37,738 nucleotides of DNA from Sulfurospirillum sp. Lineage in GTDB: Bacteria > Campylobacterota > Campylobacteria > Campylobacterales > Sulfurospirillaceae. This document shows positions 3,830 through 13,895 of the stretch, one piece after another. The translations under genes were made by a program, and so were the position numbers. Position 1 is the stretch's first letter. Every line of letters starts with the position of its first letter. The stretch spans positions 1-37,738 of the forward strand of contig JADGDR010000016.1 of NCBI GenBank assembly GCA_016744795.1, read 5' to 3'. The notes below the pieces were generated by a model. It was not told the DNA's origin. It was given only the letters and a program-made list of their open reading frames with translations, and made no database searches.

Positions 3830-5418
3830 TTGTTTACTGAAAAGAATATAGCTCGTTTGATTATTGCAACACCGATTATCTCGGTTTTTCTTTTTGCTTT
3901 GCTTATAATCTATTTTTTTGTAAATGCTCAGTATAGTAACTTTCAGAAAGAGAGTCTTGTCCTTGAAAAAGAGTATTTTTTAAGACAAAAAAATATTTTA
4001 AAAATGAGAACCAAAGGGTTTTAGAGTATATAAAATATCACAGAAAAGTAGAAAAAAAACGATTACATAATGAGTTCCGTCAACTTGTCCGTAGCGGTGA
4101 AAGTGTAACTGAAAAGTTTTTTGAAGAGTATAAAAAAAGGGCTATAAATAATCTAAAAATGCAGATTATCGATTGGATGCAGAGTATTCGTTATGAGGTA
4201 AATGGATATATCTGGGTTCATGATACTTCACATCATCTTATTGCTCATCCTTTTAGATCTATTAGCATAGGTAAGGATGATACAAATAACACAGATGCAA
4301 CAGGCACAAAAATTTTTCAACAATTTATTAATATTGCTAAAGAGAATGAAAAGGGTGGTTTTATCGAGTATTATTGGGCAAAACCAGAGTTTGGCGCTCC
4401 TAGAAAAAAGATAGGTTTTTTGGCTCTAGATAAAGAGTGGGGTTGGGTTATAGGAACTGGATTATATGCTGATGATATAGAGGCTTCACTTTTTAAGAAA
4501 AAATTGGCTTTAGAGAAAAAGATAGATAAATATGTGCAAATTATCTTGCTTACAGCTTTGTCATTAATGATAGTTATTGGTATAGTAAGTCTTTTGATTT
4601 CAAAAAATATTGTAAGAGTCTTTACCAGTTATCGTGAAAAAGTATCTAAAAAAGAACAAACTCTAAAAGAGTTTAATAAAATGCTTACAACAAAGGTTAA
4701 AGAAGCACTTAATGAGGCAAAGAAAAAAGATAAAGCACTTCTTCAGCAATCTCGTTTGGCTCAAATGGGTGAAATGATAAGTATGATAGCTCATCAATGG
4801 AGGCAACCGCTGTGTGAGATATCTGGGATTTTTATGGAGATGGAAACTGCAGCTAAGTTTGATAAAGCAGATAAAAAGTTTATCCTAGCCGAGTCAAAAG
4901 ATGGAACTAGACTTATATCTTATATGTCTAAAACAATAGATGATTTTAGAGATTTTTTTAAACCTGCTAAAGTAAAAGAGCTATTTAGTTTGACTCGTGC
5001 TTGTGAGGAAGCTATAACTTTGTCAAGTGCTAGTTTAAAAAACAGAGATATTCATCTTGATTTACATGTAAAGAAAGATTTACATGTAAGTGGTTATGCT
5101 TGTGAGTTTGCACAAGTGATTTTAAATCTGATTTTAAATGCAAAAGATGCGTTAATAGAAAGAGACATACAAAATCCAAGAATAGTTATAATCATAGAAA
5201 ATGTTAATAATAACTCATTTGTTAAAGTTAGTGATAATGGTGGTGGTATTGGTAAAGATATACTAGACAGAGTATTTGAGCCATATTTTAGTACAAAAAA
5301 AACTACAGGTACTGGATTGGGTCTTTATATGTCAAAAATGATAATAGAAGAGAATATGGGTGGAAAAATAACTGTGGAGAATACAGATGAAGGAGCAAGG
5401 TTTTGTATCGAGATTTAA
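3830..5418 (+). pseudogene. Cache-domain sensor histidine kinase, frameshifted
   Basis: Two open pieces form one kinase. The first (3830-4024, TTG start) gives the cytoplasmic tip, the first membrane helix (~residues 9-31) and the start of the sensor; it then ends at a stop at 4022-4024. From about 4003 the coding sense continues one frame over (ENQRVLEYIKYHRK..), before the nominal restart ATG at 4159. A one-base loss in the A7 (3987-3993) or A5 (4000-4004) run explains it. The rest encodes a Cache-type periplasmic sensor (HDTSHHLIAHP; GGFIEYYW; GWVIGTGLY), a second membrane helix, the phospho-acceptor His (codon 4792-4794, in MIAHQWRQPL), and a full ATPase domain (NAKDAL N-box, DNGGGIG, FEPYFSTK, GTGLGLY). 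The 3' end overlaps the regulator gene by 16 bp. Either real decay, phase variation or a sequencing error; otherwise the kinase is intact. Confidence 0.85.
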
Positions 5419-6059
5419 GAATACTTTGTGTAGAAGATGAGCAGGGTGTAAGAAAACATATAGTTAATACTTTGGCTTATTATTTTAAAAATGTATATGA
5501 AGCTAGTAATGGGAAAGAGGGTTTAAGTATCTATTATGAAAACAAACCAGACATTATTCTTTGTGATATTCAGATGCCTGTAATGGATGGTATTGAGATG
5601 ATTAAGCTTATTCGAAAAGAGGACATAACCACTCCCATAGTGCTTCTAACTGCTCATAATAGTGAAGAGTATTTGATTGAGCTTATAAATCTTCATATAC
5701 AACATTTTATACTAAAGCCAATAAATACTCAAAAATTAGAAGAGGCGTTATCTAATGCCTTACAAGGGAAATATACAGGTTCTATAAAACTAGGATTAGA
5801 TGTTTTTCTTAATATAGATGATTTGATTTTGAAGGTTGAAAATAGAGATATTTCACTGAGTTTTCGTGAGGTAAAGTTTTTAACTTTATTGGCAAATGAT
5901 AATGTTATTCATTACAATACAATAGAAGAAAATTTATGGGCAGATAAGCCCATGAGCATTGGAGCATTGAGAAGTTTTGTCAGAGATTTAAGGAAAAAGA
6001 TTCCTTATGAGATAATAGAAAATGTAGCACAAGTTGGTTACAAATTGTTACACCATTAG
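5403..6059 (+). CDS. OmpR/PhoB-type response regulator next to the TRAP operon
   Basis: 218 residues from a TTG start inside the kinase 3' end, giving translational coupling. Receiver domain ~4-120: acidic pocket E11-D12, phospho-acceptor Asp55 in LCDIQMPVMDG, the T/S position in LLTAHN and the switch Lys in FILKPIN. The C-terminal ~85 residues form a winged helix-turn-helix (SLSFREVKFLTLL..; RSFVRDLRKKI; VAQVGYKLL). It would be phosphorylated by the upstream Cache kinase and, from gene order and the tandem 10-bp repeats at 6091-6110, is the likely activator of the dctPQM operon that starts 95 bp downstream. The binding assignment is an inference. Confidence 0.88.
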   Translation: MYRDLRILCVEDEQGVRKHIVNTLAYYFKNVYEASNGKEGLSIYYENKPDIILCDIQMPVMDGIEMIKLIRKEDITTPIVLLTAHNSEEYLIELINLHIQHFILKPINTQKLEEALSNALQGKYTGSIKLGLDVFLNIDDLILKVENRDISLSFREVKFLTLLANDNVIHYNTIEENLWADKPMSIGALRSFVRDLRKKIPYEIIENVAQVGYKLLHH

Positions 6060-6153: not shown

Positions 6154-7107
6154 ATGTTTAAAAAAGTAGTTTTATTTGTTGGAGTTAGTGCACTGTTAGT
6201 AGCTGGTAATGTTAAGTTGGACTTAAATGCAAAATATGGAGCAAATAACTTTCACACAAAAGGGGCTGAAAAATTTGCAACTTTAGTAGATAAATATACC
6301 AATGGTAGTGTGAAAATTACTGTTCATGCAGGTAGTTCTTTGGTTAAGGGGAATGCTCTTAAAGCGGTAAAAGATGGAACCGTTCCTATGACCGATATGT
6401 TTATTCCTTTTACAAGTGGCGGAGGTAAAGTTTTTGGAATTTCTGCTCTTCCTTTTATTGTTTCAAGTTATGATGATGCATATAAGTTATATCAAATTTC
6501 AAAACCAGCTTACGATAAGGTAGCTAAAAAGTGGAATCAAAAAATGCTTTATGCTGTAACTTGGCCACCAAGTGGAATCTATACAATGAAAGCAGTTAAC
6601 TCATCTGCAGATTTTAAAGGTGTAAAAGCAAGAACTTATGATAAAAACTCAGCTAACTTTGTAAAAATGGCTGGCGGTAGTGCTGTAGCTCTTCCATGGG
6701 GAGAAGTATACTCTGCTCTTCAAACAGGTATGGTTAATCCAGTTGTAACATCATCTGCGAGTGGAAAAGATGGGAAGTTTTGGGAAGTTTTGAAAAACTT
6801 TACAAAGATTGGTTATGCATATCCACTTCAAGCTGTAACAATTAATCTTGATTACTGGAACTCTTTGGATAAAGTTCAACAAGCAGCAGTTTTAAAAGCA
6901 GCTAAAGAGATTGAAGCACTACAATGGGAGGCTAGTAAACATGAAGATGCTGCAGCTCTTAAAATGATAAGCAAAAATGGCATGAAAGTAAGTGAGCCAA
7001 GTGTAGCACTAAAAAAAGAGTTAGATGCTATTGGTAAAAAATTATTAGATGCTTATCTAAAAGGTGCAAATTCATCAATTAAAAAGATATTTAACGAGTA
7101 TAAATAG
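6154..7107 (+). CDS. dctP: TRAP transporter substrate-binding protein (DctP family)
   Basis: 317 residues with a signal peptide (MFKKVVLFVGVSALLVAGN). Binds the substrate in the periplasm and hands it to the DctQM membrane pair, using ion gradients. DctP hallmarks are visible: GAEKFATLVDKYTNGSVKI after the first strand, the FVKM..AVALPWGEVYSALQTGMVN segment, and GVKARTYD with the conserved Arg (~residue 152) that grips a substrate carboxylate. That Arg predicts an organic acid, in this operon perhaps D-glutamate, 5-oxoproline or a related C5 acid; the exact ligand cannot be read. An AAAGGAG ribosome site precedes the ATG. The stop codon directly abuts the next gene's ATG. Confidence 0.9.
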   Translation: MFKKVVLFVGVSALLVAGNVKLDLNAKYGANNFHTKGAEKFATLVDKYTNGSVKITVHAGSSLVKGNALKAVKDGTVPMTDMFIPFTSGGGKVFGISALPFIVSSYDDAYKLYQISKPAYDKVAKKWNQKMLYAVTWPPSGIYTMKAVNSSADFKGVKARTYDKNSANFVKMAGGSAVALPWGEVYSALQTGMVNPVVTSSASGKDGKFWEVLKNFTKIGYAYPLQAVTINLDYWNSLDKVQQAAVLKAAKEIEALQWEASKHEDAAALKMISKNGMKVSEPSVALKKELDAIGKKLLDAYLKGANSSIKKIFNEYK

Positions 7108-7596
7108 ATGTTAGCTAGCTTAAAAGCTTTAAGTAAAAGGCTCTCTCGATTGGGAGCCTACATCTCTTCAATTCTTTTCGTTTTACTAGTTATTTTGATA
7201 ATGACAGAGATTATAGGACGTTCATTTTTTGATTATTCAACAATGCTTGCCGATGAATACAGTGGATATTTTTACCTTGCGGCAGTATTTTTTGGTTTAG
7301 CTTATACCTTTGAAGAGGGTGGTCATATTAGAATTAACTTGATAACTTCAAGATTTAGTGAAAGAGGTCAGGAGTGGATAGATATTTTTGCAGGAGTGAT
7401 GTCAGCAGGAGTTATGCTTTTTGTATTGTACTATTGTTGGTTATTTATGATAGATTCTTTTGAAATGGAGATGCTCTCAGAAAATGTTTCTGAAACACCT
7501 CTATATCTTACACAAATAGCCATGCCTATTGGCATAGCTCTTTTTGTTCTTTCCTTTTTGGTATTTACGTTAAAAAGGATTTTTAATGATTACTGA
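7108..7596 (+). CDS. dctQ: TRAP transporter small permease (DctQ family)
   Basis: 162 residues with four predicted membrane helices (~17-37, ~50-68, ~93-113, ~133-155), the standard size and topology of DctQ. The ADEYSGYFYLAAVFFGLAY stretch between helices 1 and 2 and the GGHIRINLI motif after helix 2 are typical. The start codon follows the DctP stop with no gap, and the 3' end overlaps dctM by 11 bp, so the three genes are translated as one unit. Confidence 0.9.
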   Translation: MLASLKALSKRLSRLGAYISSILFVLLVILIMTEIIGRSFFDYSTMLADEYSGYFYLAAVFFGLAYTFEEGGHIRINLITSRFSERGQEWIDIFAGVMSAGVMLFVLYYCWLFMIDSFEMEMLSENVSETPLYLTQIAMPIGIALFVLSFLVFTLKRIFNDY

Positions 7597-8923
7597 TCCT
7601 CTATTTTTATCTGTTGTATTAATTGCCATTATGTTTTTCTTTTTACTTAGTTCTATTTGGATAGGCTCGGCACTTATGCTAACAGGAGTTGCAGGAATGT
7701 TTTTGTTTGAACATAACCTTCCTCCCACAATTAGTATTTTTCAAAAAACTGGTGACTTATTAGCCGGTTCACTTTATGATTCTTTGAATTCTTGGTCACT
7801 TGCAGCCTTGCCTATGTTTATTTTGATGGGAGAGATTTTATATCATTCATCTATATCAACTAAACTTTTAAATGGACTTATGCCATGGCTTTCAAAAGTA
7901 CCTGGTCGTCTTTTACATGTAAACGTTGCAGCATGTTCACTTTTTGCAGCAGTTTCAGGCTCATCAGCGGCTACAACTGTAACAGTTGGTAAGATAACAT
8001 TAGGAGAGCTGAAAAGTAGAGGATATAGCAAAAAACTAGCTATTGGTTCACTCGCAGGAAGTGGAACTTTAGGGTTTTTGATTCCTCCAAGTTTGATTAT
8101 GATTATTTATGGAGTTCTCTCCGATGTTTCAATTGGTAAACTTTTTATAGCTGGAATTATACCAGGACTTCTACTTGCAACTTCATATTCAATTTATATT
8201 ATGATTGTTTCATATTTTGATAAATCTACAGTTCCTGCAGAGGAAGAGCATTTTACAAATATGGATAGATTGATGTCTTTAAAAGACTTGGCTCCTATAT
8301 TTTCTTTAATTATTTTGGTTATGGGAAGTATATATGGTGGTTTTGCAACTCCAACAGAAGCTGCCGCTTTAGGTGTTATGGGTGCAATTGCTCTTGCTGT
8401 ATTTTTCAAAAGTTTTAGTTGGAATATATTTAAAGATTCCCTTTTAAATGCCGTAAAAACTACAGTTATGATTAGTTTTATAATTGCAGGTGCTGGTTTT
8501 TTATCTCAAGTTGTTGGATTTTTAGGAATTGCAAGAGCTATTAGTGAGTTTATTGGAGGACTTGGGCTTTCTCCTTATATGCTGATTCTTGTTATTGGGC
8601 TTATGTATATTGTTTTAGGTATGATTTTAGATGGAATTTCTATTGTTGTTATGACTTTGCCTATTGTTTTACCTATTATAGTTATGGCTGGGTTTGATCC
8701 TCTTTGGTTTGGTATATTTCTTGTTTTTATGGTAGAAGTTTCTCAGATAACACCGCCTGTAGGCTTTTCTCTCTTTGTTATACAAAGCATCAGTGGGGAA
8801 AATATAGGTTATATTTTAAAGGCAACTTTTCCATTTTTTATCATTATGATTTTAATTGTTATGCTTATTACCTTTTTTCCAGAAATTGTATCGTATCTGC
8901 CTAAAAAAATGATGGGAATGTAA
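7586..8923 (+). CDS. dctM: TRAP transporter large permease (DctM family)
   Basis: 445 residues, hydrophobic throughout, with the length and ~12-helix pattern of DctM, the translocating subunit. Family marks: SGSSAATTVTVGKITLGELKSRGYSKKLAIGSLAGSG (split here by the family's loop), LIPPSLIMIIYGVLSDVSIGKLFIAG, FATPTEAAALGV and the C-terminal VEVSQITPPVGFSLFVIQ. AAAGGA lies upstream of the ATG. A small imperfect hairpin (CTAATTT..AAATTAG, 8955-8973) follows the gene and might weaken read-through to the DUF1445 gene. Confidence 0.92.
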   Translation: MITDPLFLSVVLIAIMFFFLLSSIWIGSALMLTGVAGMFLFEHNLPPTISIFQKTGDLLAGSLYDSLNSWSLAALPMFILMGEILYHSSISTKLLNGLMPWLSKVPGRLLHVNVAACSLFAAVSGSSAATTVTVGKITLGELKSRGYSKKLAIGSLAGSGTLGFLIPPSLIMIIYGVLSDVSIGKLFIAGIIPGLLLATSYSIYIMIVSYFDKSTVPAEEEHFTNMDRLMSLKDLAPIFSLIILVMGSIYGGFATPTEAAALGVMGAIALAVFFKSFSWNIFKDSLLNAVKTTVMISFIIAGAGFLSQVVGFLGIARAISEFIGGLGLSPYMLILVIGLMYIVLGMILDGISIVVMTLPIVLPIIVMAGFDPLWFGIFLVFMVEVSQITPPVGFSLFVIQSISGENIGYILKATFPFFIIMILIVMLITFFPEIVSYLPKKMMGM

Positions 8924-9004
8924 AAGAGTGTTGTTTTTTGTGAAGTTTTTGCTAATTTTCTATAAATTAGTCTATTTTTAGTAGAATATGTTTAAAGGAC
9001 TAAA

Positions 9005-9772
9005 ATGACAGCAAAAGAATTTAGAAAATCAATAGCAAAAGGTGAGTTTAATAAACCTACAGCAGGTTATTGTAGTGGGCATGTTCAAGCAAATATGCTT
9101 GTATTGCCAAAAGAATATGCTGACTCTTTTGAAGAGTTTGCAAAGAAGAATTCAAAAGCAATTCCTGTTTTAGAAATTGTAAAAGGTTCACACTACTCTG
9201 AAACTTTAGCAAAAGGAGCGAACCTTTTAAACGAGCTTCCTTCTTATGACATTATCGAAAATGGTAAAGTTATAAAAAGTGTGAAAAGCATTGAAGAGTA
9301 CTATAGTGATGATTTTGTGTTTTTCTTAATTGGGTGTAGTTTTACTTTTGAAACATCTTTGTTAAAAAGTGGAATTAGCTTACGTCATGTAGATTTAAAA
9401 TCAAACGTTACTATGTTTGATACAAATATAGAGTTAATTCCTGTTGATATGTTTAAAGGCAAAATGGTAGTTTCAATGAGACCTATTAAAAAACAAAGAG
9501 TAGCAGATGCTTGTGTAGTGACAAGCCATTATCCCGATATGCATGGAACTCCTATTCAAGTGGGATACCCTGAGATGATAGGAATAAAAGATTTGCAGAT
9601 TCCAGATTATGGAGATAAAGTTGAAATTAAAGATGATGAGATACCTCTTTTTTGGCCTTGTGGTGTAACTCCTCAAAATGTTTTAAAAGAAGTGAAACTT
9701 CCATTTGCCATAACTCATAGTCCCGGATATATGTTTGTATCAGATAAAAAAGATTCAGATTATTTTGTTTAA
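9005..9772 (+). CDS. DUF1445 protein (YcsI type), N-terminal half of D-glutamate cyclase
   Basis: 255 residues, full length for DUF1445. Diagnostic blocks: GYCSGHVQANMLVLPKEYA (~21-39), FFLIGCSFTFETSLL (~100-114), the MRPI block (~158), a TSHYPDMHGTP block with the conserved histidine, FWPCGVTPQ and ITHSPGYMFVSD near the C-terminus. B. subtilis YcsI belongs here and sits in the ycsF-kipI-kipA operon; in mammals the same domain is the N-terminal half of mitochondrial D-glutamate cyclase, which turns D-glutamate into 5-oxo-D-proline. Neighbours fit: the DUF4392 half follows, then the three 5-oxoprolinase genes. An AAAGGAC ribosome site precedes the ATG. The hydro-lyase label often given to this family is weaker than the cyclase link. 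Confidence 0.85.
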   Translation: MTAKEFRKSIAKGEFNKPTAGYCSGHVQANMLVLPKEYADSFEEFAKKNSKAIPVLEIVKGSHYSETLAKGANLLNELPSYDIIENGKVIKSVKSIEEYYSDDFVFFLIGCSFTFETSLLKSGISLRHVDLKSNVTMFDTNIELIPVDMFKGKMVVSMRPIKKQRVADACVVTSHYPDMHGTPIQVGYPEMIGIKDLQIPDYGDKVEIKDDEIPLFWPCGVTPQNVLKEVKLPFAITHSPGYMFVSDKKDSDYFV

Positions 9773-9784
9773 GCTAAGCACTTA

Positions 9785-9813
9785 TTGACCACTTTATATT
9801 GATAAAATATAAT
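9785..9813 (+). promoter_or_regulatory. strong sigma-70-type promoter ahead of the DUF4392 gene
   Basis: TTGACC (9785-9790), 17-bp spacer, TATAAT (9808-9813). This is the best -35/-10 pair seen in the window. It would start transcription near 9820, leaving a leader of about 75 nt before the ATG at 9897, and gives the cyclase C-half and pxpABC a promoter separate from that of the transporter. Confidence 0.7.
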
Positions 9814-9856
9814 CTATTGTAGTATACTATTTTAAATTAATAGAGGATGTATTGAG

Positions 9857-9904
9857 ATGAAATTGTTTTTTAATATTAATAGTTATTTAGTTTATTATGT
9901 GTAA
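9857..9904 (+). CDS. possible 15-codon leader ORF overlapping the DUF4392 start
   Basis: A GAGG-type ribosome site precedes ATG at 9857; the peptide reads MKLFFNINSYLVYYV and its stop (9902-9904) overlaps the first codons of the next gene (ATG 9897), which lacks a good ribosome site of its own. This suggests translational coupling or a leader peptide. It could equally be chance in AT-rich DNA. Confidence 0.3.
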   Translation: MKLFFNINSYLVYYV

Positions 9905-10700
9905 ATCTATTGATGAGATTATACTCCAACACTCTACTAGAGGAATGGATATTTTGCAAACAAAATATCCAAAAGAGCACTGTAAAGAAGCAGTAAAAGC
10001 TTTTAAAAAACTAAAAAAGGGAGTAATCTTCCTTTATACTGGTTTTTATGTTGGTGGTTTTGCAGAGACTGATGGACCTATAGGAACCTATTTTCTCGCA
10101 TGTACCCTAAACTCTTTGGGATATAAATCAATCATTATAACTGATAAGTTTTGTAAAAATTATTTTAAAGAGATAGAGACTCTTTATATTCCACTTAATG
10201 GATATAATAAAGATTATTATGAGACAATATTAGATGAATATAATCCAATTTGTCACTTTTCAATAGAGAGGTGTGGAAAAAATGCTGAGGGATTATATGC
10301 AAATATGAGAGGGGTAGACATAACTGAGTTTACATCCCCTGTAGATGAGCTTTTTATGCTTGGAGCGAAAACTAAACCAACTTTTGCTATTGGTGATGGT
10401 GGAAATGAGCTTGGTCTTGGTAACTTTGCAGATTCTGTAAAAAAAGATCTCTGTCTCACTCCTTGTGTAATAAAATCTGATTTCCCCATAATTGCTAGTG
10501 TATCAAATTGGGGTGCTTATGGTTTTATAGCCTATCTTGAAAAAGAGTTATTACCAAACTTTGATGAAGTAGATGAGTATTTGGAATTTATAGTTAGTCT
10601 AGGCTCAATTGATGGCGTGAGTAGAAAAAATGAGAAAACAGTAGATGGTAAAGATTGGGATATAGAAAAAAATATACTTGAAGATTTAAAAAGGTCATAA
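9897..10700 (+). CDS. DUF4392 protein, C-terminal half of D-glutamate cyclase
   Basis: 267 residues. Family blocks seen: FLYTGFYVGGFAETDGPIGTYFLA (split by the family's glycine loop, ~47-68), FSIERCGKNAEGLYANMRG (~121-139), FAIGDGGNELGLGNF (~165-179), SNWGAYGF, and a C-terminal SIDGVSRKNEKTVDG. These match the DUF4392 domain that forms the C-terminal half of mammalian D-glutamate cyclase, where it is fused to DUF1445; here the two halves are neighbouring genes 124 bp apart. Predicted role: cyclisation of D-glutamate to 5-oxo-D-proline, or binding of the acid, together with the DUF1445 partner. The start ATG lacks a clear ribosome site but overlaps a short leader ORF. Stop is 1 bp before pxpA. 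Confidence 0.85.
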   Translation: MCKSIDEIILQHSTRGMDILQTKYPKEHCKEAVKAFKKLKKGVIFLYTGFYVGGFAETDGPIGTYFLACTLNSLGYKSIIITDKFCKNYFKEIETLYIPLNGYNKDYYETILDEYNPICHFSIERCGKNAEGLYANMRGVDITEFTSPVDELFMLGAKTKPTFAIGDGGNELGLGNFADSVKKDLCLTPCVIKSDFPIIASVSNWGAYGFIAYLEKELLPNFDEVDEYLEFIVSLGSIDGVSRKNEKTVDGKDWDIEKNILEDLKRS

Positions 10701-10701
10701 A

Positions 10702-11430
10702 ATGAAGTTAAATTGTGATTTAGGTGAGAGTTTTGGTCCTTGGAAGATGGGAATTGATGAGGCTATAATGCCATTAATAGATAGTGCGAACATAGCCTGT
10801 GGTTTTCATGCATCAGACCCAGTTATTATGCAACATACTGTTAAGCTTGCTTTAAAACATGGTGTTAGCATTGGAGCACATCCAGGTTATCCTGATTTGG
10901 TTGGATTTGGACGAAGAAGTATAGCTTGTACTCCAAAAGAGATAGAAGCATTTTTGATATATCAATGTGGAGCATTAGATGCTATATGTAAAGCTCAGGG
11001 TACAAAAATTGAGTATGTAAAACCTCATGGAGCTTTGTATAATGATATGATGAAAAATGATACAGTTTTTATGGCACTTGTGCAGGGTTTATCAAAGTAT
11101 AGAAAAGATTTAAAGCTTATGATACTTTCAACCAATAGAAATATTCATTTTAAAGAATTAGCCAAACCTTATGGAATAAAACTTATATATGAAGTATTTG
11201 CCGATAGGGCTTACACAAAAGAGGGTTTATTGGTTCCTCGCACAGAAAATGGCAGTGTTATAGAGTCTACAGATGAAATTTTAGAGCGTATAGAGATGCT
11301 TCAAAAACAGAAAAAATTAAAAACAATATGTGGTAAAAAGATAGAGCTTCAAGCAGATTCAATGTGTGTACATGGTGACAATCAAAAGGCAGTTGAGTTG
11401 GTAAGAGCTTTAAGAGAATATATTGGGTAG
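10702..11430 (+). CDS. pxpA: 5-oxoprolinase subunit A (LamB/YcsF family)
   Basis: 242 residues. Part of the ATP-dependent PxpABC enzyme that opens 5-oxoproline (pyroglutamate) to glutamate in the cytoplasm. Motifs: NCDLGESFG (~4-12), ANIACGFHASDP (~29-40), GAHPGYPD (~58-65), YVKPHGALYND (~105-115), FADRAY and SMCVHGDN near the C-terminus. These are the metal/ligand-lining blocks of the LamB/YcsF barrel. It is encoded directly after the D-glutamate cyclase half and before pxpB, so the enzyme is set to consume the cyclase product. Confidence 0.92.
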   Translation: MKLNCDLGESFGPWKMGIDEAIMPLIDSANIACGFHASDPVIMQHTVKLALKHGVSIGAHPGYPDLVGFGRRSIACTPKEIEAFLIYQCGALDAICKAQGTKIEYVKPHGALYNDMMKNDTVFMALVQGLSKYRKDLKLMILSTNRNIHFKELAKPYGIKLIYEVFADRAYTKEGLLVPRTENGSVIESTDEILERIEMLQKQKKLKTICGKKIELQADSMCVHGDNQKAVELVRALREYIG

Positions 11431-11444
11431 TAAAAGGGGTATGA

Positions 11445-12128
11445 ATGCGTTGTTTTAGTGTGGCTTCGGTTGACTCAGTCATTATCTACTTTGGTCAAGA
11501 TATATCACAAAGTATAGCAAAAGAGGTACGTAAAACTTTTTATACCTTAAAAGATGCAAAACTTGAACACATAACGGAGATAGTTCCATCGTATACTTCT
11601 ATTATGGTTAGTTATGATTTTTTAAAAGTTAGCTACAAACAAATATGCAAAGAGATAGATGAGGTGCTAGAATATAATGACGAATCATACAATGAAGTTA
11701 CAACACGTTTAGTTAATGTTCCTGTTTATTATGGTTTAGAGGTTGGTTTAGATTTGGAAAGCTTAGCGAAGATGAAAAACAGAACTATACAGGAGATTAT
11801 ATCTTTACATGTAAACAAAGAGTACTTTGTATATGCCATAGGATTTAGCCCGGGATTTCCATATATGGGAGAGGTTGATGCTGCTCTAGCAAGCCCACGA
11901 CTTGCAAACCCAAGAGCAAAAGTTCCTAAGGGTAGCGTCGGTATTGCCGATAATCAAACAGCTATTTATCCTCAATTAAGTCCTGGTGGTTGGCAAATTT
12001 TAGGAAGAACTCCAACAGAAATGTTTGATACCTCTTATGATGGTTTTTCTTATTTAAAAGTTGGAGATAAAGTAAAGTTTGAGCCTATTAGCAAAGAAAA
12101 TTTTTTAGAGCTTGGAGGTGAAATATGA
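11445..12128 (+). CDS. pxpB: 5-oxoprolinase subunit B (KipI family)
   Basis: 227 residues. KipI/allophanate hydrolase subunit 1 fold: N-terminal VDSVIIYFG, a middle YYGLEVGLDLESLA, and the cyclophilin-like block FSPGFPYMGEVD, RAKVPKGSVGIADNQTAIYP and SPGGWQILGRTP (~125-195). Pairs with PxpC in the oxoprolinase complex; KipI was first named as a sporulation kinase inhibitor in Bacillus, which does not apply here. The 3' end overlaps pxpC by 4 bp (ATGA). Contains a TTTACATGTAAA copy at 11804-11815. Confidence 0.92.
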   Translation: MRCFSVASVDSVIIYFGQDISQSIAKEVRKTFYTLKDAKLEHITEIVPSYTSIMVSYDFLKVSYKQICKEIDEVLEYNDESYNEVTTRLVNVPVYYGLEVGLDLESLAKMKNRTIQEIISLHVNKEYFVYAIGFSPGFPYMGEVDAALASPRLANPRAKVPKGSVGIADNQTAIYPQLSPGGWQILGRTPTEMFDTSYDGFSYLKVGDKVKFEPISKENFLELGGEI

Positions 12129-13033
12129 GAAGTGGTTTTGAAGTAATCACAGCTGGTATTCAAGCAACTATCCAAGATTTGGGGCGTATTGGTTTAGCTC
12201 AAATTGGAGTAAGTTTGGCAGGTGCTATGGATGAGTTTGCGTTTAGCCATGCCAATAAACTTTTAGATAATAAATATGGTACAAATATGCTTGAAGTCGT
12301 ATTTGGTGGTGTAAAACTAAAATCAATAGGTTCAACTACAATAGTCCTAACAGGGGCAAAGGTAGATGCCAAAATCAATAATAAAGTGATAGAGATATGG
12401 AAAACATATAAAATAAACGATGGAGATGTCCTTAGTCTAGGATTTGCTACAAGTGGAGCAAGAGTATACATAGCTGTTAAAGGTGGTTTTGATGTTAAGC
12501 AAGAGTATGGTAGTTGTTCTGTTAGTATCAAAGAAAAATTAGGTGGAAAACCTTTACATGTAAAGCAGTTTTTACCGTTTACATGTAAAGAATTAAAAAA
12601 TATTAGAAAATTGTCAAAAAGATACCAGCCTGATTATGATAAAGTACTTACCTTAAGAATCGTAGCCGGGTATCAGTGGGATATGTTTGAAAAAAATCAA
12701 AGAGATAAATTTTTCAAAACTACATATAGAGTATCTGGGCAAAATGATAGAATGGGTTATCGTTTGAGTGGTGAGAAGATAAGCTCAACTTGTAAGGGAA
12801 TAGTCTCTGAACCCATTGCCTATGGTTCAGTACAAATTCCAGCTCATGGTGAGCCAATAGTGCTTTTAAAAGAGAGACAGACCATAGGAGGTTATCCCAA
12901 AATCGGTTGCGTTATACCAGTAGACTGTTTTAGATTGGCTCAAGCAAAACAAGATTCTGAAGTTAATTTTGAACTTATAGACCTTGATAAAGCTAGAGAG
13001 ATAAATAGAAAGTTTTATAAATTTTTTAAATAA
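12125..13033 (+). CDS. pxpC: 5-oxoprolinase subunit C (KipA family)
   Basis: 302 residues, usual length for KipA/allophanate hydrolase subunit 2 proteins. Marks: TIQDLGRIGLAQIGVSLAGAMDEFAFSHAN (split; ~16-45), MLEVVFGG, RMGYRLSG (~213-220), SEPIAYGSVQIPAHGEPIVLL (~229-249, split) and QTIGGYPKIG. With PxpA and PxpB it forms the pyroglutamate-opening enzyme. Two exact TTTACATGTAAA palindromes lie 13 bp apart inside the gene (12553 and 12578), read in two different frames. Confidence 0.92.
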   Translation: MRSGFEVITAGIQATIQDLGRIGLAQIGVSLAGAMDEFAFSHANKLLDNKYGTNMLEVVFGGVKLKSIGSTTIVLTGAKVDAKINNKVIEIWKTYKINDGDVLSLGFATSGARVYIAVKGGFDVKQEYGSCSVSIKEKLGGKPLHVKQFLPFTCKELKNIRKLSKRYQPDYDKVLTLRIVAGYQWDMFEKNQRDKFFKTTYRVSGQNDRMGYRLSGEKISSTCKGIVSEPIAYGSVQIPAHGEPIVLLKERQTIGGYPKIGCVIPVDCFRLAQAKQDSEVNFELIDLDKAREINRKFYKFFK

Positions 13034-13043
13034 GGAGTTTTTA

Positions 13044-13895
13044 ATGTTACCTAAAAAAATGTTTTTCCCAATAGGTGGTGGTGAAGAGTTAAAAGAGAGG
13101 ATACATGGAGCGTTGCTTGTATCTAAGCATTTTAATACTCATTTAGAAGTGTTGATTTCTCATGCTAGTATAAGAAATTCAATTCCTGAGGGAATTGCTT
13201 TACCTGAAGAGGTGTTAAAACGGCTGAGCAATATTGAAGAAAACAATCTTCAAAGAGAGTTGAGTATTCATGAAGGCATATTCAACAAATGTTGTATGGA
13301 GTTAGGAGTAGGCATAAGCTCATCAGCTTTATCAGATAAATGTACAGCACATTTAAATGTAGGTGCAGGAACAAGAAGTACACTCGTAGCACAGCAGTCA
13401 AAATTTTGTGATATGGTTATAGCCGCTGCTCCACCAAAAGGTGTTGCTACTGCAACTTTTCAAGCCACTGTTTTACAAAGTGGAAAGCCTGTAATGGTTA
13501 TTCCTAGGATTATGAAAGAGTTTAAAGTTGATAATATAATGATAGGTTGGAATAACTCTCCACAAGCTTCTAGAGCTATATCTGAGGCTATTCCTCTTTT
13601 AAAACAAGCTAAAAGAGTTCACATTGTATCGTCAAAAGCATATACAACCGAGAATCTATCAAGAATAAAAGATTTAAGAAATTATTTGGCTCTGCATGAT
13701 ATAGACGCTACGTTTGAGCTTGTAAAAACTACATTTGTTCCAGGTGAAGCATTATTGAAAAGTGCACAAAAAGATGATTTTGATTTGATAGTTGCTGGAG
13801 CTTATGGACAAAAAGGATTTAAAGAGATGATGTTTGGAGGATCTGCACGATACTTATTGCAACACACAACTATTCCTACATTAGTAGCTCACTAA
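13044..13895 (+). CDS. tandem universal stress protein (UspA family)
   Basis: 283 residues made of two Usp domains (~1-155 and ~160-283). The second carries the nucleotide-binding pattern G-x2-G-x9-G-S/T as GAYGQKGFKEMMFGGS (~252-267), after DLIVAGAYG; the first has a degenerate version (DMVIAAAP). It has an AAGGAG ribosome site, follows pxpC by 10 bp, and is the last gene before the terminator at 13901, so it belongs to the operon. Its role there is unknown; tandem Usps often accompany transporter or metabolic operons. Confidence 0.85.
   Translation: MLPKKMFFPIGGGEELKERIHGALLVSKHFNTHLEVLISHASIRNSIPEGIALPEEVLKRLSNIEENNLQRELSIHEGIFNKCCMELGVGISSSALSDKCTAHLNVGAGTRSTLVAQQSKFCDMVIAAAPPKGVATATFQATVLQSGKPVMVIPRIMKEFKVDNIMIGWNNSPQASRAISEAIPLLKQAKRVHIVSSKAYTTENLSRIKDLRNYLALHDIDATFELVKTTFVPGEALLKSAQKDDFDLIVAGAYGQKGFKEMMFGGSARYLLQHTTIPTLVAH

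Follow-up and report, generated by a model that had tools for sequence, protein, structure and literature searches.

The window analysed here, meaning the whole stretch of DNA, is the entire contig G000:C30 (37,738 bases) of a Sulfurospirillum genome of 2.68 Mb. It carries a block of + strand genes that brings together a tripartite ATP-independent periplasmic (TRAP) transporter, members of the DUF1445 and DUF4392 families, the three subunits of 5-oxoprolinase (PxpABC) and a universal stress protein (Usp). A sequence-only reading had described it as an operon importing D-glutamate, a wall product containing it, or pyroglutamate (5-oxoproline), and converting the import to glutamate. We argue that the block is probably a salvage operon regulated by a two-component system, which would import pyroglutamate and convert both D-glutamate and pyroglutamate to L-glutamate. 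Gene content, conservation, nearest structural relatives and co-occurrence, all observed directly, form the basis of this proposal.

The gene identities and coordinates of the sequence-only reading are borne out; all the genes that it named lie on the + strand and have strong family matches in Pfam and NCBIfam. The TRAP system consists of the solute-binding protein DctP (6154..7107; Pfam DctP, E 1e-41), predicted to bind pyroglutamate, the small membrane subunit DctQ (7108..7596; Pfam DctQ, 8e-25) and the large membrane subunit DctM (7586..8923; Pfam DctM, 5e-85; TIGR00786 above cut-off). Next come DUF1445 (9005..9772; PF07286, Pfam name D-Glu_cyclase, 4e-61), a predicted link between cyclase and 5-oxoprolinase, and DUF4392 (9897..10700; PF14336, GLUCM-like_C, 2e-65), a predicted metal-dependent D-glutamate cyclase. 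The three 5-oxoprolinase subunit genes are all present and adjacent: pxpA (10702..11430; LamB_YcsF, 5e-97; NF003816 above cut-off), pxpB (11445..12128; CT_C_D, 4e-66; TIGR00370 above cut-off) and pxpC (12125..13033), the last identified by CT_A_B (3e-79) and TIGR00724 (above cut-off), the equivalog NF045499 falling below its cut-off. The final gene encodes Usp (13044..13895), accompanies the block in this genus only, and has its Pfam Usp score confined to the C-terminal half, so that the family match bears out one half of the tandem described earlier. Gaps between genes range from -11 to +14 nucleotides, save for 81 nucleotides 5' of DUF1445 and 124 nucleotides 5' of DUF4392, and at these two places the earlier description of tiny gaps fails. 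A -35/-10-like site at 9785-9813, in the gap between DUF1445 and DUF4392, was considered as a promoter; the scan returned 34 such sites for 31.9 expected, close to chance, and the site is therefore not evidence.

The block begins upstream of position 6154. A sensor histidine kinase (3830..5418) and a response regulator (5403..6059) with receiver and winged-helix DNA-binding domains (Pfam Response_reg 1e-28, Trans_reg_C 2e-6), together spanning about 3830-6059, are conserved along with the dctPQM-pxpABC set. In the window, the kinase gene is broken across two frames near 4003, at an A-rich run, because of either a genuine frameshift or an error in the sequence; it is a single open frame in the sister species L028. 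An intact relative of the kinase, in L058, contains a dCache_2 sensor domain and HATPase_c.

The order kinase, regulator, dctPQM, DUF1445, DUF4392, pxpABC and Usp is identical in L028, L037 and L040, three loci from other genomes of the genus. It is kept up to the contig end in L034, and is rearranged at the contig end in L045. Because this order is maintained across sister genomes, far above chance, the block is a real unit. In g2 and g3, two related genera, kinase-regulator-dctPQM stands immediately 5' of pxpABC in many genomes, with DctP and DctM about 74% and 76% identical to the window proteins, and the DUF1445/DUF4392 pair is found at another genomic place, divergently transcribed. Likewise, dctPQM immediately precedes pxpABC in three other families, at L195 and L197 (f9), L203 (f16), and L204 and L207 (f10), where DctP and DctM are 69-79% identical. 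The genomes that hold these loci, G015, G028, G058, G165 and G226, are absent from the list of genomes with DUF1445 or DUF4392. Since the TRAP genes precede pxpABC in genomes lacking both families, the transporter goes with the 5-oxoprolinase and not with the cyclase. The full block is conserved within the genus, but elsewhere TRAP-pxpABC and the DUF1445/DUF4392 pair are separable. The TRAP and PxpABC core is the wider unit, and DUF1445 and DUF4392 are added to it in this genus. The conversion of D-glutamate and pyroglutamate to glutamate gains support from Bacillota, Chloroflexota, Gammaproteobacteria and Eggerthellaceae, four further lineages in which DUF1445/DUF4392 cluster with pxpABC. Two variants of the pair's surroundings were noted. 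Another TRAP system adjoins it in two g3 genomes (L041:11103-13819 and L033), and in a Campylobacteraceae metagenome-assembled genome (MAG; L101:9214-10822) DUF1445 overlaps DUF4392 in a two-gene operon, with pxp and TRAP genes not nearby.

The ligand of the transporter was addressed by comparing the window DctP with all PDB sequences. The top three matches, 2pfz, 6wgm and 2pfy, scored 163, 150 and 127 bits (31, 33 and 28% identity), and the next one 88 bits. According to their PDB titles, two of these are Bordetella pertussis DctP6 and DctP7 "binding pyroglutamic acid"; the third, of marine origin, is a TRAP protein "specific for pyroglutamate". Residues W137, P138, G141, R160, Y162, E184, S200, G204 and D206 are identical in all three in the sequence alignment. 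A control search with DctP from the other TRAP system, in L041, ranked 4xeq first, not the pyroglutamate receptors. The AlphaFold model of the window DctP is poor (predicted local distance difference test score, pLDDT, 59.6). It served solely for reading the titles of the PDB chains nearest to it, and not for binding-site geometry; these titles match the outcome of the sequence comparison. Because DctP groups with pyroglutamate binders and TRAP-pxpABC occurs where cyclase genes are absent, the system is most likely a pyroglutamate importer rather than a D-glutamate importer. TRAP-mediated pyroglutamate uptake has been discussed for Bordetella (PMC13274462, PMC12344293).

In DUF4392, the alignment places all six metal-site acids of Thermococcus onnurineus TON_0340 (here E57, D59, E124, D167, E171 and D250), and these are at least 95% conserved across 100 loci. 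TON_0340 stands for the single characterised DUF4392 structure family, with these six metal-binding acids (PMC5132392). A mouse protein containing both DUF1445 and DUF4392 converts D-glutamate to 5-oxo-D-proline; its authors reported DUF4392 in vertebrates and invertebrates and DUF1445 in vertebrates only (PMC5339696). We predict that DUF4392 is a metal-dependent D-glutamate cyclase with its own complete metal site. A class IV aminotransferase, nearest to D-amino-acid transaminase models with scores below their cut-offs, adjoins many DUF4392/DUF1445 clusters. Among the loci fetched from the order of G279 (Lachnospiraceae), those with DUF4392 (L179, L180, L181, L187 and L188) also have this aminotransferase. 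It is absent from the loci that have pxp and DUF1445 but no DUF4392 (L178, L184, L185, L186, L189 and L190, some of them short stretches). This pattern points to an input module, made of transaminase, D-glutamate and DUF4392, and an output module, made of DUF1445 and 5-oxoprolinase. In several Clostridia (L105, L107 and L111), DUF4392 occurs without DUF1445 or pxp genes, 3' of a gene whose first residues look like those of a single-strand binding protein.

The partner of DUF1445 was sought in genome-wide counts. In 249 Campylobacterales genomes, DUF4392 (21 genomes) is nested within DUF1445 (26), itself nested within PxpA (45), with zero exceptions. In the order of G279 (392 genomes), PxpA is found in all 14 genomes with DUF1445, out of 25 PxpA genomes in total. 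Among 50 genomes with DUF4392, drawn from several phyla, 34 have DUF1445; 25 of these have PxpA, and the remaining 9 all have Hydantoinase_B. Conversely, only 1 of the 16 genomes without DUF1445 has PxpA, and none of the 15 others has Hydantoinase_B. A Fisher test of PxpA against DUF1445 in this set of 50 gave 8e-6, a value to be taken as a guide only since the genomes are related. MAG incompleteness affects presence counts; for instance, L115 has pxpB in a genome scored as lacking PxpA. In a Latescibacterota MAG (L103:5386-10828), a fused HyuA-HyuB (OPLAH-like) gene is followed by DUF1445 and then DUF4392, so that by sequence an oxoprolinase-type enzyme unrelated to PxpABC appears to take the PxpABC position. 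DUF1445 occurs without DUF4392 in Bacillus subtilis (control search), G070, G156 and G187, and several loci from the order of G279 have it with no DUF4392 close by. These data suggest that DUF1445 tracks 5-oxoprolinase of either type rather than DUF4392. We found no description of this co-occurrence rule in the literature searched.

The sequence-only reading had treated DUF1445 and DUF4392 as a split D-glutamate cyclase, with D-glutamate among the compounds that the TRAP system might import. The fusion of both domains in the mouse cyclase (PMC5339696), their joint presence in 53 of 80 loci, and the fact that in Campylobacterales DUF4392 is never found without DUF1445 speak for two halves of one enzyme. 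However, either family is common alone, with differing co-occurrence rules, as seen in the 16 DUF4392 genomes without DUF1445, the DUF1445 genes without DUF4392 and the invertebrate DUF4392 proteins. In addition, the DUF4392 metal site is complete on its own, and the nearest relatives of DctP are pyroglutamate binders. This makes the split cyclase doubtful and probably wrong.

We consider it fairly likely that DUF1445 is a separate step or partner acting between the cyclase and the oxoprolinase. Known PxpABC acts on the L-form of 5-oxoproline. The puzzle of stereochemistry raised earlier is a genuine one, and the distribution across genomes suggests that its answer should be sought in DUF1445. 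Two cysteines, C111 (in GCSFTFE) and C219 (in WPCGVTPQ), never vary among the 73 loci compared, and the two solved relatives, 2pif and 3db9, have them as well. In the confident DUF1445 model (pLDDT 94.5), each cysteine lies after a strand and before a helix. Such a pair fits a cofactor-independent two-thiol racemase, as far as sequence and model go. A tentative possibility, which we rate as less likely than not, is that DUF1445 is a 5-oxoproline racemase, a distinct enzyme and not half of a cyclase, and that the operon encodes a full route from D-glutamate to L-glutamate. Corynebacterium glutamicum uses 5-oxo-L-proline for growth via pxpTABC (PMC13274462) and the control search found no DUF1445 match in C. 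glutamicum or Escherichia coli; DUF1445 is hence dispensable for the L-form. In the literature searched, neither a bacterial 5-oxoproline racemase nor the function of DUF1445 was the subject of any paper.

Several points weigh against these proposals. The mouse two-domain enzyme was reported to yield 5-oxo-D-proline and no L-glutamate (PMC5339696), which opposes a racemase because a racemase domain should also yield 5-oxo-L-proline. No Asp/Glu racemase or DapF/proline racemase fold was among the best matches of the DUF1445 fold search, which does not exclude a racemase; outside the family, the best match was to the NrpR-like 3nek (Z 10.0, 167 residues). An internal duplication of DUF1445 with one cysteine per half was also considered and dropped, as profile halves scored no better than shuffles in a comparison of sequences only. 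The co-occurrence counts are phylogenetically non-independent, and the Hydantoinase_B family is not oxoprolinase-specific. In G070, DUF1445 stands in a context that leaves room for another role: at L192:9625-14715 it comes last, after the genes of a further TRAP system, a gene for a carbon-nitrogen hydrolase and an RraA-like gene, and DUF4392 is absent.

The 3nek match and the strict accompaniment of DUF1445 by 5-oxoprolinase would also fit a sensor or a stabilising partner of 5-oxoprolinase that is no enzyme of the route; NrpR senses 2-oxoglutarate. We regard such a role as improbable. The two invariant cysteines and the dense invariant residues suggest catalysis, DUF1445 tracks two unrelated kinds of protein, PxpABC and the hydantoinase-type oxoprolinases, and PxpABC functions without DUF1445 (PMC13274462; control search). 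An operon for pyroglutamate only, in which DUF1445 and DUF4392 would repair damaged or D-form pyroglutamate in the cell instead of processing imported or cell-wall D-glutamate, is similarly unlikely. In several families TRAP-pxpABC is complete without the cyclase genes, and glutamine and glutamate give rise to 5-oxoproline spontaneously (PMC13274462, PMC10448178), as repair would have it. Nevertheless, the D-amino-acid-transaminase-like genes beside DUF4392 clusters argue that D-glutamate is a real input in those lineages, and repair leaves the separate, optional DUF4392 module unexplained.

In the salvage operon that we favour, the TRAP transporter would bring in pyroglutamate, and PxpABC with ATP would open 5-oxoproline to L-glutamate. 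DUF4392 would cyclise intracellular D-glutamate to 5-oxo-D-proline. DUF1445, placed between cyclase and 5-oxoprolinase, would most likely make the D-form accessible to an oxoprolinase specific for the L-form, or couple the two enzymes in another way. If it were the racemase, the full series would run from D-glutamate to 5-oxo-D-proline (DUF4392), to 5-oxo-L-proline (DUF1445) and to L-glutamate (PxpABC). The kinase/response regulator pair would regulate the block. Here we infer the substrates, the DUF1445 reaction and the control by the kinase pair. With the D-glutamate cyclase genes, 5-oxoprolinase and a TRAP importer for pyroglutamate in one regulated unit, each poorly known part gains a testable role, and the rule linking DUF1445 to 5-oxoprolinase makes the question of a D-product meeting an L-specific enzyme testable with three proteins. 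Should DUF1445 be a separate enzyme, its names "D-Glu_cyclase" (Pfam) and "putative hydro-lyase" (NCBIfam) would need revision, as would the published phosphatase reading of DUF4392. A racemase activity, if true, would alter the interpretation of vertebrate DGLUCY, including the human protein.

The component families are known; their arrangement, with a pyroglutamate TRAP system, 5-oxoprolinase and cyclase genes in one unit, departs from the known operons of this type. The mouse 9030617O03Rik and human C14orf159 (DGLUCY) proteins share DUF1445, DUF4392 and the conversion of D-glutamate to 5-oxo-D-proline (PMC5339696), but each is one fused mitochondrial protein with a reported D-form product. 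TON_0340 has the same six metal-binding acids; however, it is published, with phosphatase assays, as a probable Mn2+-dependent phosphatase of low activity (PMC5132392). B. pertussis DctP6 and DctP7 are pyroglutamate-binding TRAP receptors and among the nearest solved relatives of the window DctP (~28-31% identity). They are, however, discussed with a eukaryotic-type 5-oxoprolinase gene and not pxpABC, and pyroglutamate use was not demonstrated there (PMC13274462). C. glutamicum pxpTABC likewise joins an importer to PxpABC for growth on 5-oxo-L-proline (PMC13274462), but PxpT is not a TRAP importer and there is no D-glutamate branch.

The closest operon is pxpA-ycsG-ycsI-pxpBC (ycsF/kipIA) of B. 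subtilis, which shares PxpABC, a DUF1445 gene and ATP-dependent 5-oxoprolinase. It differs by the lack of a TRAP system, by a genome without DUF4392 (control search) and by control through KipR, TnrA, AhrC, MntR and CcpA rather than a kinase pair. The TRAP system had been thought to stand in for the NRAMP-type gene of Bacillus, an idea that we reject, since this gene product, YcsG, was shown to import Mn2+ (PMC10448178). Within Campylobacterota, an NRAMP-type gene lies beside pxp genes at L193:2526-10766, by family match, and at L191:5458-9893, together with DUF1445, by inspection of the sequence; in L191, pxpB and pxpC are one gene. Both loci appear to follow a Bacillus-like pattern of NRAMP-type gene, pxp and DUF1445.

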